A program made the position numbers and the translations under genes. This document shows positions 6,876 through 40,157 of a stretch of 40,157 nt of DNA, piece by piece. This stretch comes from a virus. Each line of letters begins with the position of its first letter. The first letter of the stretch is position 1. Below the pieces are notes generated by a model. The model did not search any database and was not told where the DNA came from. It saw only the letters and a program-made list of their open reading frames with translations. Where the stretch lies: the IMG/VR virus record IMGVR_UViG_3300023171_000025, positions 1 through 40,157 of that record; one strand, given 5' to 3'.

Positions 6876-7090
6876 CCCGCCTCGCGATCCCCGCAAACAT
6901 CCACGACCTTGCCAACCGCGCGCACAACGACGCGAAACGCGCTGCAACGGCGCTGACGGGTACCTCGACACTGGCGGCCCTCGTATCCGCCAGACTGGCC
7001 GGTAAGCGCGCCATGGACAACCTGCGCACCCTGGAACCCATGATCCGGCGGCTGGAGGCTGAGGCTCGGTCGATGGAGGGAGCGTCGTGA
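6872..7090 (+). CDS. Small alanine/arginine-rich helical protein
   Basis: A 72-residue basic, helical protein (IHDLANRAHNDAKRAATALT; MIRRLEAEARSMEG). The pattern suggests two antiparallel helices. It starts with a 4-bp overlap and ends with a GTGA overlap onto the methylase-like gene. Function unknown; it could bind nucleic acid because of its charge. Confidence 0.65.
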   Translation: MTRLAIPANIHDLANRAHNDAKRAATALTGTSTLAALVSARLAGKRAMDNLRTLEPMIRRLEAEARSMEGAS

Positions 7091-7659
7091 GGGTGCTGGT
7101 TGCCTGCGAATACTCGGCTACGGTTCGGGACGCCTTTATTCGACGCGGACATTCCGCCTGGTCGTGCGATTTGCTGCCGACCGAAGGCGATCCGTCCTTT
7201 CATTTGAAGGAGGATATTTTTCATGTCCTAACTTCATCGAAATGGGGCTCTTGGGACTTGATGATTGCACACCCCCCGTGCACCGACTTGTCCGTCTCCG
7301 GCGCTCGACACTTCGCGGCCAAGATCGCTGATGGTCGTCAGCAAGCTGCGCTCGACTTCGTGCGCGCACTGATGGCCGCCAATGCGGATCGAATCTGTAT
7401 TGAGAACCCCATCAGCGTCATCAGTAGCAAAATCCGCAAGCCGGATCAGATCATCCAGCCCTGGCAGTTCGGACACGGCGAAACCAAGGCGACGTGTCTG
7501 TGGTTGAAGAATCTTCCGAAGCTTGTGCCGACCGACGTTGTCGAAGGGCGCGAGGCGCGTATTCACAAGATGCCGCCTGGGCCTAATCGGTGGAAAGAGC
7601 GGTCACGTACGTTCAAAGGGATTGCCGAAGCCATGGCGGAACAGTGGGGCGGGCAATGA
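7087..7659 (+). CDS. C5-cytosine methyltransferase-like protein (short form)
   Basis: A 190-residue Rossmann-type protein starting at GTG, overlapping the upstream stop. It begins MRVLVACEYSATVRDAF (SAM-binding loop region), has the PPC catalytic motif in IAHPPCTDLSVSG (residues 63-65) and an ENP motif (106-108), both typical of C5-cytosine DNA methylases. At 190 residues it lacks room for a normal target-recognition domain (bacterial enzymes are 300-400 residues). Many phages carry such short methylase-like proteins. It may modify phage DNA against restriction enzymes, or be a divergent relative with another role. Confidence 0.75.
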   Translation: MRVLVACEYSATVRDAFIRRGHSAWSCDLLPTEGDPSFHLKEDIFHVLTSSKWGSWDLMIAHPPCTDLSVSGARHFAAKIADGRQQAALDFVRALMAANADRICIENPISVISSKIRKPDQIIQPWQFGHGETKATCLWLKNLPKLVPTDVVEGREARIHKMPPGPNRWKERSRTFKGIAEAMAEQWGGQ

Positions 7660-11903: not shown

Positions 11904-12062
11904 ATGAAAATCTGGAGCCGCCGTTTCACCCCATCCCTCGGGAACCACTGGAAGGTGGAGCGCGAGTGCGCGCCGCAAGCCGTTCAGCAGTGGCTTGCGA
12001 TATTCCGTGCTGATGAACCGAACACCTGCTTTATCGGCCAGTCCCGCAGGCCTGCAAAATGA
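11904..12062 (+). CDS. 52-aa protein of unknown function
   Basis: Starts at the ATG at 11904, about 23 bases after the predicted rightward start point, with GGAA upstream; the longer frame running from 11514 is open by chance across the antisense gene. The product is basic and aromatic (MKIWSRRFTPSLGNHW) with a typical ending QQWLAIFRADEPNTCFI, then SRRPAK, a pattern seen in small phage proteins of unknown role. Its stop overlaps the next ATG (ATGA). Confidence 0.6.
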   Translation: MKIWSRRFTPSLGNHWKVERECAPQAVQQWLAIFRADEPNTCFIGQSRRPAK

Positions 12063-12364
12063 TCGGTTCCGACGAGTTAGGGGCCCTGATCATCAGGGTC
12101 GCGGTCGTTTCTGTTGAGGCTGATGGAAGCGCAAAGATTATGAACCCGCGCACCGTGGCCAAGGCCGTTCTTGCTGCGACGGAGCCACCCGCGCTGCTGC
12201 CGTGCCCTTTCGATGGGGGCAGCGCTGAGGTCAGAGCATCTCATGACGAGTTTTCGCGTAAAATGGCTGTGGTCGTGTGCCGGGGCTGTGGAGCGACATC
12301 AGCGGCATTTACCGATGATGTGCGAGCGATCTCCGCGTGGAATGCTCGTGAGGCCTCTCAATGA
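12059..12364 (+). CDS. Second Lar-like zinc protein, first knuckle altered
   Basis: A 101-residue protein. Residues 44-98 match the Lar family: ALLPCPFDGGSAEVRAS, then CRGCGATS (C74, C77), then ISAWNAR. Where the family has CPFCG this one has CPFDG, so one zinc ligand is Asp52 instead of Cys; zinc may still bind, or the domain may be degenerate. The N-terminal 43 residues are unrelated to the family. It overlaps the upstream gene by 4 bp and is the last clear gene of the rightward accessory operon. Confidence 0.65.
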   Translation: MIGSDELGALIIRVAVVSVEADGSAKIMNPRTVAKAVLAATEPPALLPCPFDGGSAEVRASHDEFSRKMAVVVCRGCGATSAAFTDDVRAISAWNAREASQ

Positions 12365-12877: not shown

Positions 12878-14104
12878 ATGCAAGTTTTTGAAGGCGCTCA
12901 AGGCGGCCTTGTTAAGGCGTGGATCGACGGCGTCCAACTTGAGGACGCAGCCCGCAAGCAAATCGACAATCTGGCGGCAATGCCGTTCGTTCACAAACAC
13001 ATCGCGGTTATGCCAGATGTGCACTGGGGCATGGGGGCGACTGTCGGCTCTGTCATTCCAACGCGCGGGGCGATTATCCCAGCCGCCGTTGGCGTGGATA
13101 TTGGATGCGGTATGATCGCTCAGCGCACCTCTCTTGTCGCCGCCGATCTCCCTGACAATCTGTTTGGTCTGCGTACTGCGATTGAATCTCGTATTCCTCA
13201 CGGGCGCACGAATGACGGCAAGCCAGGAGATCGCGGCGCTTGGGGCGACGTTCCGGAGAAGTATGCGGCTGAGTTTGCTCGCCTAAAGTCGGGGCTTGAA
13301 GAGATCGTCGCCAAGCACCCGAAGATAGGTCAAGCTGCTGAGCGCGCCCCTTCGCATCTCGGCACTCTGGGGACCGGAAATCACTTTGTTGAAGTGTGTC
13401 TGGATGAGCAAGACCGTGTCTGGATCATGCTTCACTCTGGATCGCGCGGGATCGGTAACAGAATCGGCTCCTACTTCATCGAGAAGGCAAAGGAGGAAAT
13501 GAAGCGATGGTTCATTAACCTGCCTGATCAGGACTTGGCGTATATCGCTCAAGGGTCGCCGCTCTATCCGGACTACATGAAGGCGCTTTCGTGGGCGCAG
13601 GGGTTCGCCAAACTGAATCGCGCCTTGATGATGGACGCGGCTCTGGAGGCTATGCACGCGACAATAGAGAAGCCTTTCGTGACGGACTGCGAGGCAGTTA
13701 ACTGCCACCACAACTACGTTTCGCAGGAACAGCATTTCGGCGCTGAGGTGATGGTGACGCGTAAGGGCGCAGTTCGTATTACAGAATCGGAACTTGGGAT
13801 CATCCCCGGATCGATGGGGGCGAAATCTTTCATCGTGAAGGCCAAGGCTGGCGCGTCTCTTGCTATGTCGATGAACTCCTGCTCTCACGGCGCAGGGCGC
13901 GCAATGTCTCGCACTGAGGCCAAGCGCCGGTTCACCGTAGAAGACCACATCAAGGCGACTGAAGGCGTCGAATGCCGAAAGGATGAAGACGTGATCGATG
14001 AGACTCCCGCAGCCTACAAGGACATTGACGCCGTCATGGCCGCTCAGGCCGACCATGTCGAAATCGTCCACACCTTGAGACAGGTTGTGTGCGTCAAAGG
14101 ATGA
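12878..14104 (+). CDS. rtcB: RtcB RNA 3'-phosphate/2',3'-cyclic phosphate ligase
   Basis: A 408-residue full-length RtcB, with AAAGGAG 6 bases upstream of its ATG. RtcB joins RNA ends carrying 2',3'-cyclic phosphate or 3'-phosphate to 5'-OH ends, using GTP and Mn2+. Hallmarks: DVHWGMGATVGSVIP, VGVDIGCGM with metal ligand Cys77, LGTGNHFVEV, HSGSRGIG, and NSCSHGAGRAMSR in which His337 is the residue that takes GMP, the same number as in the E. coli enzyme. No archease gene is seen. The gene is followed by a terminator and two tRNA genes, so repair of tRNAs cut by host anticodon nucleases is a likely job. Confidence 0.97.
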   Translation: MQVFEGAQGGLVKAWIDGVQLEDAARKQIDNLAAMPFVHKHIAVMPDVHWGMGATVGSVIPTRGAIIPAAVGVDIGCGMIAQRTSLVAADLPDNLFGLRTAIESRIPHGRTNDGKPGDRGAWGDVPEKYAAEFARLKSGLEEIVAKHPKIGQAAERAPSHLGTLGTGNHFVEVCLDEQDRVWIMLHSGSRGIGNRIGSYFIEKAKEEMKRWFINLPDQDLAYIAQGSPLYPDYMKALSWAQGFAKLNRALMMDAALEAMHATIEKPFVTDCEAVNCHHNYVSQEQHFGAEVMVTRKGAVRITESELGIIPGSMGAKSFIVKAKAGASLAMSMNSCSHGAGRAMSRTEAKRRFTVEDHIKATEGVECRKDEDVIDETPAAYKDIDAVMAAQADHVEIVHTLRQVVCVKG

Positions 14105-14178: not shown

Positions 14179-14255
14179 CTGCGTGTAGCTCAGTCTGGTA
14201 GAGTACTCGATTTGGAATCGAGGGGTCGTAGGTTCGAACCCTGCCACGCAGACCA
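14179..14255 (+). tRNA. tRNA-Pro (anticodon UGG)
   Basis: A 77-nt cloverleaf with encoded CCA. Acceptor CTGCGTG/CACGCAG pairs fully; the anticodon stem CTCGA/TCGAG holds the loop TTTGGAA with anticodon TGG; the T arm has TTCGAAC. It should read CCA and, by wobble, CCG/CCT/CCC proline codons. Confidence 0.95.
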
Positions 14256-14260
14256 ATTCT

Positions 14261-14334
14261 TCAGGGTTCGTCTAATGGTAGGATATCGCACTTTGACTGC
14301 GAAGATTCAGGTTCGATGCCTGACCCCTGATCCA
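14261..14334 (+). tRNA. tRNA-Gln (anticodon UUG)
   Basis: A 74-nt cloverleaf with encoded CCA. Anticodon stem TCGCA/TGCGA with loop CTTTGAC, anticodon TTG; T arm TCAGG/CCTGA with loop TTCGATG. The last acceptor pair (T7 with C) is a mismatch. It reads CAA glutamine codons. It ends one base before the stop codon of the convergent endolysin gene. Confidence 0.9.
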
Positions 14335-34226: not shown

Positions 34227-35497
34227 GCCGCCCATCCAGATGTTCTGCGCTTCGACGGCGCGTAAGGATCGCGCACGTTCGCCTGTAGCTTCTCGCGGTA
34301 ACTCACACCAAGCATGCGGAGCGCGTCGGACCCGTGGGAAGACCAGTTGTGATTCGGTCTCGCCTCGAACACCTTGCGCTTATCGTCCCACTTCTTGGCG
34401 TAGTTACGAAGGGCCTCAAGGCCCGCTTCGCACTTCACCGAGTCAAACCAGAACCGCGAGAATAGCACGCGTGTCGCGTTGATGCCATCTTCAACGCCAA
34501 GCATGGGCGCAACACTCAGTTTGCCCAGCAGAGACCGCAAAACCTCCTCCCGCGACCGGCCCGTTGTCATCTCACGAACCCTGACATCGTGCGGGAGGAT
34601 GTGGTCTGCGTAGGTGTATCCCTTGCCCATGACCTCGCTGGCGATCTTCGTTAGCGGCGTCTGCGTCCACTCCTGATATTCGATCAGGCGAATCTCTTTG
34701 CCCAACTCCTGAACGAACCAGATCGCGGTCGCATCGTCCAGACCCAAATCCCAATAGGTCTTAACCGGGATCGCTGGATCGTGCGGCACGGAACCGATGC
34801 GCCGTTGTTCGTTCGCAAGCTCGATGTCCTGGCCGTAGTATGAACCGATGACGGCGCTGTCGAACGAACAACCGAACTCCGTAGCATATTGCTCTTCAGT
34901 CATGGAGGCGCGCGCGTCGGCAAGTTCAGCCGCGTCGATGATCCCGGTATCCTGTGCTCCCATCTTTAGAAAGTACCATGCCGGATCGGCCTTAGCGCGC
35001 TCGCACACGTCGTAAAAGGCATTGCGGCCCTTGGGTGTGCCGATGAACACCGCAGAACCCTTGCGGTCAGCCAAGGCAGGACGAAGTACCTCATTCCATG
35101 CCGCCGGGTTCATATCCGCGTACTCGTCCAGAACCATGTGGTCAAAATACAAGCCGCGCATCCGGTCGGCGTTGTCGGCTCCGTACAACCTAACCCGCGC
35201 CCCGTTTGGGTAGTCGATCCGCAATTCCGATTCGTTGAACGAAACGCCAGGAATACTGGCGCTGAAACGCTTGGCGTACTCCCACGCCACGTCCTTAGAC
35301 TGAACGTAGGTCGGAGCCACATAGGCTCCCCTAGCGTTTGGGAGGGGGCAACGAAGCGTATTGTCTATCAGGTCAGCAACCGTCGCCACGGTCTTCCCGG
35401 CTCGACGGTGGAACACAAGCGCGGCCCAGCGCTGCGTCCGCATATGAAACGGGATAAATTGTTCTCGTGGTTGATAGCCGAAACTAACCGTTGGCAC
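34223..35497 (-). CDS. Terminase large subunit
   Basis: A 424-residue packaging motor. The ATPase half has HRRAGKT (Walker A variant, residues 30-36), VLDEYADM (Walker B) and FIGTPKG (coupling motif). The nuclease half has YWDLGLDDATAIW with likely metal-binding Asp, and SSHGSDALRML near the end with a second Asp. It starts at GTG, 14 bases inside the small subunit gene. It cuts and translocates DNA into the procapsid; headful packaging would agree with the circularly permuted ends. Confidence 0.95.
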   Translation of the reverse strand: MPTVSFGYQPREQFIPFHMRTQRWAALVFHRRAGKTVATVADLIDNTLRCPLPNARGAYVAPTYVQSKDVAWEYAKRFSASIPGVSFNESELRIDYPNGARVRLYGADNADRMRGLYFDHMVLDEYADMNPAAWNEVLRPALADRKGSAVFIGTPKGRNAFYDVCERAKADPAWYFLKMGAQDTGIIDAAELADARASMTEEQYATEFGCSFDSAVIGSYYGQDIELANEQRRIGSVPHDPAIPVKTYWDLGLDDATAIWFVQELGKEIRLIEYQEWTQTPLTKIASEVMGKGYTYADHILPHDVRVREMTTGRSREEVLRSLLGKLSVAPMLGVEDGINATRVLFSRFWFDSVKCEAGLEALRNYAKKWDDKRKVFEARPNHNWSSHGSDALRMLGVSYREKLQANVRDPYAPSKRRTSGWAA

Positions 35498-35909
35498 GAG
35501 GCACGCCGCTCAAAACGACAAGTGGTCCGCCGTCAGCGCCTGTGATCTCCTGCTGGACCTTGTCCCCGTAGCGCTTCGGGTCCCACTTGGCGAGGAGTTT
35601 CAGGCGCGTTTCGACGCGAAGTTTTGACCGGCTGATCCACTCGCTATCAGCCGATGTCGCGCCGTCCTTGCCGATCTTCGTATCGAACGCAGTTTCGTCA
35701 GCAATCGCCAGACAGTCCTCCGCGATCTTGTCGAACCCTTCGTCCCTCGCGTGCGCGTGCGCGATGTCTAAATCCGCGTCGTCGCGGCACCAAGTGCGCC
35801 AAGCCGAAGTTGTGATGTCATGAAGTTTGCAAGCGCTCGTAAGCGTCTCTCCGTTGCTCATGCGAGCAAGGATGTCCTTGACCATTTCGGGTGTGCGTTT
35901 GGTCTGCAC
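35484..35909 (-). CDS. Terminase small subunit
   Basis: A 141-residue protein starting at GTG with GGAGAG about 9 bases upstream. The N-terminal part is a helix-turn-helix (ILARMSNGETLTSACKLHDI, then TSAWRTWCRDD), as in small terminases that recognise the packaging site; an oligomerisation helix follows (SRSKLRVETRLKLLAKWDPKRYG), with the KWDPKRYGDK block common in this family. It heads the late operon. Confidence 0.85.
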   Translation of the reverse strand: MQTKRTPEMVKDILARMSNGETLTSACKLHDITTSAWRTWCRDDADLDIAHAHARDEGFDKIAEDCLAIADETAFDTKIGKDGATSADSEWISRSKLRVETRLKLLAKWDPKRYGDKVQQEITGADGGPLVVLSGVPRANG

Positions 35910-36220: not shown

Positions 36221-36361
36221 CTACAACAGCAGCGACACGGTTGCAATCACCGCGCCCACACATTCGAGAGCGAACCCCGCGCGAGACAGTCCAGGCCGCT
36301 CAAGAACGACGAGAACGGTCCCCACGGTGAAGATGATTGCGGCGACGAGGATCAGGGTCAC
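36221..36361 (-). CDS. 46-aa two-span membrane peptide
   Basis: Starts at GTG (36361), overlapping the upstream stop by 4 bp, and ends TAG at 36221. The peptide has two hydrophobic segments (LILVAAIIFTVGTVLVVL and FALECVGAVIATVSLLL) separated by a short basic turn (ERPGLSRAG). It looks like a small inner-membrane hairpin protein. It lies outside the lysis cassette. Function unknown. Confidence 0.6.
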   Translation of the reverse strand: MTLILVAAIIFTVGTVLVVLERPGLSRAGFALECVGAVIATVSLLL

Positions 36362-36748: not shown

Positions 36749-36925
36749 GGGTGTAGGGTGCAGGATGGTGTACGGTTGTTCCGGTAACACACTAAGCGCG
36801 CATGTGGGAGGAACTGGGGGAAACATACACTATCCTACACCGCCTCGTAACACGCTGTTTCATAAGGCGAAACACGGTGTAGGATTGCGATTTTTACCCT
36901 ACACCAGTGTAGGCAAACCCTACAT
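36749..36925. repeat. Iteron-like repeats, candidate replication origin
   Basis: Repeated CCTACACC / GGTGTAGG boxes: GGGTGTAGGG (36749), GGTGTACGG (36767), ATCCTACACCG (36832-36842), its exact complement CGGTGTAGGAT (36875-36885), CCTACAC-CA-GTGTAGG (36898-36913) and CCCTACA (36918-36924). The sequence becomes AT-rich to the right of 36885, with a TTTATCG/CGATAAA dyad at 36928-36946. Directly after the SF3 helicase gene, this looks like iterons plus an unwinding region. The gap 36652-36748 is G/T-rich on the plus strand and has no gene. Confidence 0.65.
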
Positions 36926-36946
36926 TTTTTATCGCTTGTCGATAAA

Positions 36947-38272
36947 TCAGTCATTTTCATCTACCGCCGTTTTAAGTCGAATATGGCGGTAATAAACCCC
37001 GTGTTTCGAGCGGTCGTTAACGAAACCTTCCCTCTGAAGGGCCTGAGAAAAGGCCTTCATGGTGGTTTTGTTTTCGCCGTAGTCGTTCAGGAATTTAGCG
37101 TAGCTGGCGAACAGGCTCTTGGCCGGTTCGAAGAGGTAGGAGTTGTCCAGATCGACCTCGCAGAACTGGTCCATCCACTGTTGCAGGACGTTCTGTTCGG
37201 CAAAATATTTGTTGGTGGCGATGGTGACGGACTTTGGCCTGATGAGGCCGTTTTTCTGCCAGTCCAGACAGCCCTCAATGGCCCACTGAAGGATTCCAGG
37301 GTACTCCGCCTCCAGTTTTTTGGAGAGTTCCTTGTCGGGTTTCTGGGGCTTGATCGTAAAGGGAATGATGTTGAAGCGGCGCTTCATGGCGTCATCGACA
37401 GACTTCAGGACAGGCTTGTGATTGCCGACGATGACCAGTTTAAACCGTGGCGTGAAGGTGAAGAAGTTCTGGCGCATGAACCTGGCTGTGATGGGGTCGC
37501 CGCCTGTCATCTGTTTGATTCGGGCTTCGGCCCACGGCCTGCCTTCCTCGGTCTCTGAGGCAGTGACCAGTCGAGCGCCGTCCAGCATGGCCAGGTCAGC
37601 CGGGATAGAACTGTTATCCTGCCGCTCGAAAGTCGTCATTGCGGCTGTCTGGGCGTATTCTCCAGCGATCCGGGTCAGTGTGTCGATGAACACCGACTTT
37701 CCATTCCCGCCCCCCCCGTAGATGAAAAACAGGGCGTGTTCTGTCGTCAGGCCTGTGAGGGAATATCCGGCGATCTGCTGAAGGAATCGCACAAGCTCAT
37801 GATCGCCGCCGGTTGCTCCGTGCAGGAAGGACAGCCATTTTGGACAGCCCATGTTGGAGGGCGGAGTCGCTGTTGACCGGTTGATTTTGTCTGAAGGTAT
37901 CGCAGACCGAAGACGCCCCGTTTTCAGGTCTACGGTGCCCGCTGGAGTTCCCAAAAGGAAAGGGTCGGGGTTCCAGTGTTCGGATGTGCGGCTAAAGACA
38001 GGATCGGCCTGGGCGAACTTCTCGACGCCCAGCGCGAAGCGGGTTTTTTGAAACTGACCCGGCGACGCGAGATTCCGCGACAAGTCACGCATGAGTTCGC
38101 GGGCGTAGTGGAAGGCCAGCGGCGTTTTGTGCTGACGCCAGATAGAGCCATCGTACTCATACCATGACCCTGCGCTGTGGCAGTAGGCCAGACGGTCTTT
38201 GTAAATCTGGGCAAAATATTCGGCGGCGCGGTCTTCAGTGACCTCGGACGCATTGTGGATAACAGGGGTCAT
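36947..38272 (-). CDS. SF3 replicative helicase, D5/P4-type
   Basis: A 441-residue protein; ATG at 38272 overlaps the upstream stop (ATGA). Residues 15-150 fit the D5_N region that precedes these helicases (YFAQIYKDRLAYCHSAGSWYEYDG); the SF3 ATPase has FFIYGGGGNGKSVFIDTLTR (Walker A at 186-193), DGARLVTASETEEG (Walker B-like), and KLVIVGNHKPVL with NHKP (motif C), then RRFNIIPF. A C-terminal winged-helix-like tail follows. Phage P4 alpha is 777 residues and has a primase domain; none is recognised here. It should unwind the phage origin. Confidence 0.9.
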   Translation of the reverse strand: MTPVIHNASEVTEDRAAEYFAQIYKDRLAYCHSAGSWYEYDGSIWRQHKTPLAFHYARELMRDLSRNLASPGQFQKTRFALGVEKFAQADPVFSRTSEHWNPDPFLLGTPAGTVDLKTGRLRSAIPSDKINRSTATPPSNMGCPKWLSFLHGATGGDHELVRFLQQIAGYSLTGLTTEHALFFIYGGGGNGKSVFIDTLTRIAGEYAQTAAMTTFERQDNSSIPADLAMLDGARLVTASETEEGRPWAEARIKQMTGGDPITARFMRQNFFTFTPRFKLVIVGNHKPVLKSVDDAMKRRFNIIPFTIKPQKPDKELSKKLEAEYPGILQWAIEGCLDWQKNGLIRPKSVTIATNKYFAEQNVLQQWMDQFCEVDLDNSYLFEPAKSLFASYAKFLNDYGENKTTMKAFSQALQREGFVNDRSKHGVYYRHIRLKTAVDEND

Positions 38273-38637
38273 TCGCGTCCGCTCTTGAGATTGAATTCCA
38301 CCAGCGCGCCTTGGGCCTCGATACCCAGAAGAGGAGTGACGTTCCCGCACTTCTCGCGCCGATAGACAAAGTTGAAAGCCCCGATAGCGGCAGTAAGGAG
38401 TTCGCCGCGAATCCGGATCGACGGGTATTCACACGCCCACCACCGCCACGCCAGACCTGTTTGGGGCTTCATAATGTGCGCGGGTTGCCAGCCGTGTTTT
38501 TCCGCGTATTCTGCGTGGTTCTCCGTGAACCAGTCGGCTGTGGCGAGAGCCCCTGCTGTTCTTTCAAATGGCACGCCGGGGAAACTGCGGCGCTGAAGTT
38601 GATACAGCCGAGCCCACCACGGGTAGCGAAGGCTCAC
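38269..38637 (-). CDS. 122-aa protein upstream of the helicase, unknown
   Basis: The GTG at 38637 overlaps the upstream stop by 4 bp; a longer frame to 38724 would overlap the HTH gene almost fully. The product is rich in Trp, Tyr and Arg: RYPWWARLYQLQRRSFPG, ADWFTENHAEYAEKHGW, LLTAAIGAFNFVYRREKCG. It is coupled to the helicase gene by an ATGA overlap, so it may load the helicase or help at the origin. No family is recognised. Confidence 0.6.
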   Translation of the reverse strand: MSLRYPWWARLYQLQRRSFPGVPFERTAGALATADWFTENHAEYAEKHGWQPAHIMKPQTGLAWRWWACEYPSIRIRGELLTAAIGAFNFVYRREKCGNVTPLLGIEAQGALVEFNLKSGRE

Positions 38638-39781: not shown

Positions 39782-40157
39782 ATGAATGACATGACAACGG
39801 TAATCCAGCCGAAGAGCGACCAGCTAAACGCTGATTCCCTTCAGGCTGGTCCAATGAATATCGAGATAACGAAAGTCGCCATTAACCCCGGCGGTGAGCA
39901 ACCTATCACTGTTTCATATCGTGGTGATGATGGGAAGCCATGGAAGCCATGTAAGAGCATGGCTCGCGTTCTGGTCGCTGCGTGGGGTCCGGATGCCAGC
40001 AAGTACGTCGGGCGATCCGTGACCCTGTTTAAAGACCCTACGGTTACGTGGGGCGGGATGGCCGTTGGCGGTATCCGGGTTTCTCATATGAGCGATCTGG
40101 ACGGGCCTCTTACCCTGGCCCTTACAGCTACTCGCGGGAACAAGAAGCCGTAAGGGC
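39782..40157 (+). CDS. N-terminal part of the 202-aa exonuclease-partner protein (partial at window end)
   Basis: The ATG has GGAGAG 7 bases upstream. About 123 codons lie here; the apparent stop TAA at 40151-40153 is created by the mismatched last bases of the window and is not real, because the same frame continues from base 2 of the window to 364. The visible part has NPGGEQPITVSYRGDDGK, then KSMARVLVAAWGPDASKYVG and RSVTLFKDPTVTWGGM, a strand-rich pattern that could be an OB-like fold. Joined length is 202 residues. Probable partner of the exonuclease in recombination; not a recognised annealing protein. Confidence 0.8.
40027..40152. repeat. Right copy of the 126-bp terminal overlap
   Basis: Identical to 1-126. 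The five bases that follow (40153-40157) do not match the continuation at 127-131 and look like a low-quality contig end. Confidence 0.9.

Follow-up and report, generated by a model that had tools for sequence, protein, structure and literature searches.

The window analysed here is an entire IMG/VR virus record of 40,157 bases. Bases 1-126 are repeated exactly at 40027-40152, with five more bases after the right-end copy, and owing to this exact 126-base end repeat the record is probably a complete genome of about 40.03 kb (40,026 bp), circular or circularly permuted though classed as linear. A phrog_11517 gene is divided between the two record ends. The genome codes for a P22-like portal, terminase subunits and a D5_N/SF3 helicase. 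The roughly 200 bp directly 3' of the helicase stop codon hold a dense array of short repeats, and about 0.8 kb beyond this array lies a gene for an Sf6-like terminase small subunit (35484-35909).

The helicase matches the Pfam families D5_N and DUF5906 and the PHROGs DNA primase/helicase families, its ATPase motifs are intact and a GGGGNGKS motif is present. Its AlphaFold2 model (mean pLDDT 89.9) ends in the order helix-strand-helix-helix-strand-strand, which is typical of a winged helix, and Foldseek matched the model to the SaPI5 primase-helicase (7ola), AsfvPrimPol and D5. The parts of the gene are as follows:

36947-38350, minus strand: SF3/D5_N initiator helicase gene, GTG start at 38350 with an alternative ATG at 38272 (Pfam, PHROGs, AlphaFold2, Foldseek)
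36974-37189, minus strand: region coding for the predicted C-terminal winged helix, residues 362-433 in the numbering that starts with the ATG at 38272 (AlphaFold2 secondary structure, iteron covariation)
36995-37024, minus strand: wing residues 417-426 (strongest covariation with the iteron word)

The array adjoins the SF3 helicase gene, as the first-pass annotation had stated, although it sits 3' of the stop codon and not upstream of the gene. It is composed of the following elements:

36749-36925, minus strand: iteron array, proposed replication origin (box clustering, matching layout in relatives)
36750-36757, minus strand: iteron CCTACACC, distal arm (box match)
36758-36764, minus strand: degenerate iteron CCTGCAC, distal arm (box match, at most one mismatch)
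36768-36774, minus strand: degenerate iteron CGTACAC, distal arm (box match, at most one mismatch)
36796-36806, no strand assigned: central alternating pyrimidine-purine tract, GCGCGCATGTG on the plus strand (sequence, counterpart tract in relatives)
36824-36830, plus strand: degenerate iteron CATACAC, helicase-proximal arm (box match, at most one mismatch)
36834-36841, plus strand: iteron CCTACACC, helicase-proximal arm (box match)
36876-36883, minus strand: extra iteron by the helicase stop, found here and in locus L003 only (box match, comparison of relatives)
36898-36905, plus strand: extra iteron, left half of the CCTACAC-CA-GTGTAGG dyad (box match)
36907-36913, minus strand: extra iteron, right half of the same dyad (box match)
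36919-36925, plus strand: extra degenerate iteron CCTACAT (box match, at most one mismatch)
36925-36960, no strand assigned: AT-rich stretch (28% GC) that reaches into the helicase stop and contains the TTTATCG/CGATAAA dyad (sequence, kept in L003)

No other 7-mer in the 40-kb record is as densely clustered as CCTACAC, of which five exact copies lie inside 200 bp, all in the interval 36749-36946. Counted with at most one mismatch, CCTACAC-like boxes occur nine times in 36751-36925, compared to about 0.3 expected from their density, and 76 times in the whole record against 74 expected, which bears out the clustering that had been proposed. The exact word CCTACACC occurs six times in the record (0.69 expected), and four of these copies lie in 36749-36946. 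At least six copies had been claimed for this interval; this number is reached only if the degenerate copies CCTGCAC, CGTACAC, CATACAC and CCTACAT are counted, as the exact CCTACACC accounts for four. The exact 11-bp inverted pair that had been described was found at 36832-36842 and 36875-36885, and the CCTACAC-CA-GTGTAGG dyad at 36898-36913.

The first-pass annotation had overlooked that the boxes form inverted arms about the central alternating tract at 36796-36806. The arms at 36824-36841 and 36750-36774 flank GCGCGCATGTG, with the boxes at 36824 and 36834 on the plus strand opposed to those at 36751, 36758 and 36768 on the minus strand. The centre between them (36775-36823) has a GC content of 55%, compared to 59% genome-wide, and is thus not AT-rich. 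The central alternating tract measures just 11 nt in the window, so that the evidence for such a tract is at the level of the family.

This family was assembled as relatives of the helicase from viral and genome contigs, giving 142 non-redundant (pro)phage loci, and inverted arms were scored as arms of 24 nt with at least 18 matches. Such arms are found directly 3' of the helicase gene in 113 of the 142 loci, compared to four of 142 within the gene and one of 134 at +1.2 kb; in about a fifth of the 142 loci a clear inverted pair is missing at the threshold of at least 18 matches. The plan common to the relatives consists of tandem iterons of 7-9 bp, an alternating pyrimidine-purine tract, and then the iterons again in inverted orientation. 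Repeats within an arm are mostly spaced by 9-10 bp, i.e., about one helical turn, and the arms are 35-93 bp apart. The iteron word changes between loci and matches across both arms of a locus, the arms agreeing at 16.9 of 20 positions within one locus compared to 12.6 of 20 between loci. Examples are GGTGACGG in L005 and L006, AGGGGGCATG in L007 and GGTGCAGG in L008, and many other words are found elsewhere.

The alternating run between the arms has a mean length of 17.9 nt, compared to 9.4 nt when shuffled regions are searched throughout for their longest run. The tract is 70% GC in the relatives and (TA)n in low-GC phages, and its GC content tracks that of the host (r = 0.81), shifting from (CG)n to (TA)n. 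As judged from these comparisons, it is this alternating tract that forms the conserved centre of the layout, as (CG)n in GC-rich phages and as (TA)n in AT-rich ones, and not the TTTATCG dyad that had been put forward. The TTTATCG/CGATAAA dyad is present in the window at about 36929-36947; beyond the window it was found in L003 and is missing from the other relatives, so that it is not a conserved part and was dropped as the key element. The four extra boxes and the AT-rich hairpin stretch near the helicase stop are likewise common to the window phage and L003 only, and the AT-rich stretch at 36925-36960 is possibly an accessory melting element outside the arms. L003 is a near-twin of the window phage in which the substitutions relative to the window avoid every box. 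The homology of the two stops just past the array, and for this reason helicase and array look like a single exchangeable module. A fixed TTTTCC..TTATCG motif beside the core, seen by eye, was discarded after TTTTCC was found in just 24 of 131 left and 13 of 131 right flanks; it is a weak consensus, a tendency only.

Annotated origins are available for three phages of Gram-positive hosts with homologous helicases, Sfi21, A2 and phiadh, and these show the same position and layout, with inverted iteron sets about an AT-rich, partly alternating tract. For Streptococcus thermophilus phage Sfi21 the record lists an "origin of replication, 302 bp non-coding region, phage inhibitory sequence" (NC_000872, 34487-34784), and this element has been reported to act as an origin that is switched on when the phage infects (PMC6356513). 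It lies directly 3' of a P4-family/D5_N primase-helicase gene, overlapping the gene end, and has tandem iterons inverted about a central alternating tract as in the window, while it differs in its AT-rich (TA)n centre, in its AGTTACTT-like iteron word and in being without extra boxes like those at 36876-36925. In the records of the Lactobacillus phages A2 and phiadh the rep_origin begins at the end of the primase-helicase gene. Both have inverted iteron sets, and the phiadh iterons GTGTAGGGTTAGTGTATAG resemble GGTGTAGGATAGTGTATG of the window; the two phages depart from it in their AT-rich centre, their longer arrays and a helicase that is fused to a primase domain. In staphylococcal elements, SaPI Rep (SaPI5) and SCCmec Cch2 are helicase-initiators of the same fold whose C-terminal domain binds iterons located immediately past the gene of the respective protein (PMC7581432); their iteron sequence is another one, and the likeness was drawn from their description. 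The window origin would thus resemble those of the SaPIs and Sfi21 in position, iterons and inversion and depart from them in an alternating centre that is not AT-rich.

Satellite phage P4 encodes alpha, a fusion of a primase with an SF3 helicase, which recognises the iterated origin of its own phage; the two sites that P4 uses, ori and crr, lie apart from each other. The label "P4-type", under which the window origin had been placed, suits the family name of the helicase, whereas the closest documented origins are those of the SaPIs, Sfi21 and A2.

Which protein reads the iterons was approached by covariation in 131 loci, in which iteron similarity was compared to the identity of single helicase domains with the contribution of the rest of the protein removed. 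Iteron similarity covaries with identity of the C-terminal domain (partial r of 0.232, reached in none of 500 permutations), weakly with the ATPase segment (0.09, reached in two of 500) and not with D5_N (-0.013); the sequences are related, and therefore the permutation counts overstate the significance. The five strongest columns correspond to model residues 417, 421, 422, 424 and 426, which are all in the wing region, and two of them lie above the 95% level of the maxima obtained by permutation. Among pairs of loci with 70-80% identity in the rest of the helicase, the C-termini are 60% identical when the iteron word is the same and 38% when the words differ. A wing of the form RGRG[FWY] goes along with GCGAC boxes in 13 of 15 loci from three helicase clusters, the two exceptions carrying GGGAC and GAGAC, and no GCGAC locus was found without RGRG[FWY]. 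For the window's own TGTAGG box, represented by three loci only, no wing signature was established. The covariation is modest, and the counts of wings and iterons are strong hints, not proof of binding. Taken over about 130 relatives, the data suggest that a change of the iteron word is accompanied by a change in the part of the helicase by which it is read.

On these grounds 36749-36925 is very probably a replication origin that is recognised by the helicase's own winged helix. The support seen in the sequence consists of the array itself, its position, its conservation, the identity of the arms within a locus and the covariation with the winged helix. The earlier proposal of an origin beside the SF3 helicase gene is upheld by layout and position in more than 100 relatives and by the annotated origins of Sfi21, A2 and phiadh, and its second part, recognition by the helicase itself, is strongly supported by the covariation of the iteron word with the C-terminal winged helix. 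In the mechanism that we propose, the SF3/D5_N helicase would be the phage's own initiator and would bind the 7-9 bp iterons via its C-terminal winged helix, above all the wing. Each inverted iteron set would seed one helicase assembly, giving two assemblies in opposite orientation; the assembled helicase would melt the centre, and from there bidirectional forks could start. The four extra boxes of the window phage, like its AT-rich stretch, probably supply further binding or melting sites.

Many phages employ a separate origin-binding protein, and by analogy the iterons could be bound by another phage protein or a host protein, with the helicase merely being loaded at the origin. This is unlikely, as the iteron word covaries with the winged helix of the helicase itself, and binding by the C-terminal domain was reported for SaPI Rep and Cch2 (PMC7581432). 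That the array is a transcriptional control region, with operators or a terminator acting on the genes that follow the helicase gene, is suggested by its place between two genes of the same strand and by its inverted repeats, which could bind repressors; it is very unlikely, given that the array accompanies the helicase although the genes behind it vary from locus to locus, that the homology to L003 ends just past the array, and that the arms are 35-93 bp apart, unlike in intrinsic terminators. A cos/pac packaging site bound by the small terminase, for which the nearby small-subunit gene and the iterated binding sites typical of cos/pac regions could be cited, was rejected as very improbable: the array stays with the helicase and not with the terminase, since Sfi21 has its array at 34487-34784 but cos at 40722 and terS at 69, the genes past the array in A2 and phi105 encode a Holliday junction resolvase or nuclease and hypothetical proteins and no terminase, and the iteron word covaries with the helicase. 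The array is also found with the helicase on plasmids without phage structural genes, which speaks against cos/pac: Methylobacterium plasmid pM44601 has no annotated terminase and plasmid pMNOD03 a lone terS only.

GC skew was set aside as evidence for the preferred reading as helicase-recognised origin. The cumulative skew of the window has its minimum at 36325, close to the array, with an amplitude that is reached by 26% of block shuffles and is thus not significant, and no consistent skew change was found across 93 relatives.

A broader proposal, which in our judgement has about an even chance of being correct, is that one origin design serves the phages, prophages and plasmids that carry this helicase: a dyad whose alternating pyrimidine-purine core is (CG)n when the host is GC-rich and (TA)n when it is AT-rich, and which has inverted iterons on either side. 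The 7-9 bp word of these iterons would have been switched repeatedly, in step with the wing. Each replicon would thereby possess a private origin through a readable protein-DNA code, and opening would occur at an alternating, possibly Z-forming, tract instead of an AT-rich unwinding element. No description of the design in proteobacterial prophages was found in the open-access literature, which covers the field in part, with subscription papers mostly outside. Helicase genes of the D5_N/SF3 kind are often annotated merely as "phage/plasmid primase, P4 family", and if the rule holds, the origin could be read directly behind the helicase gene in very many prophages and phage-plasmids. The switching of words would constitute a natural data set on how an initiator wing reads DNA and on the means by which replicons prevent cross-talk, be it among themselves or with satellites. 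Origin melting is usually pictured at an AT-rich unwinding element, and an alternating CG core at its place would challenge this view in a testable way.

The rule has exceptions: Streptomyces phage TG1, Curtobacterium phage Moss and Streptomyces durmitorensis p1 show no obvious array by eye, and some distant relatives, L009-L012, are likewise without a downstream array. L010 and L011 have a dense TGTCTAC cluster (7-8 copies per 300 bp, both orientations) about 2960 bp before the helicase end, and these two loci, which are without a downstream array, may carry their origin at this upstream cluster instead. In L017 an inverted GGTATAA cluster is located at about +1020 bp past the helicase end, not directly behind the gene, and is possibly an origin that was displaced when a gene was inserted; in L038 a similar cluster, of GTTACCA, lies at +1100 besides the normal array of this locus.

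Elsewhere in the window, an RtcB-type RNA ligase gene (12878-14104) lies immediately upstream of genes for tRNA-Pro and tRNA-Gln (14179-14334), a possible tRNA repair set. A Lar-type restriction alleviation protein (12059-12364) and a DNA methyltransferase (7087-7659) are likely anti-restriction genes.
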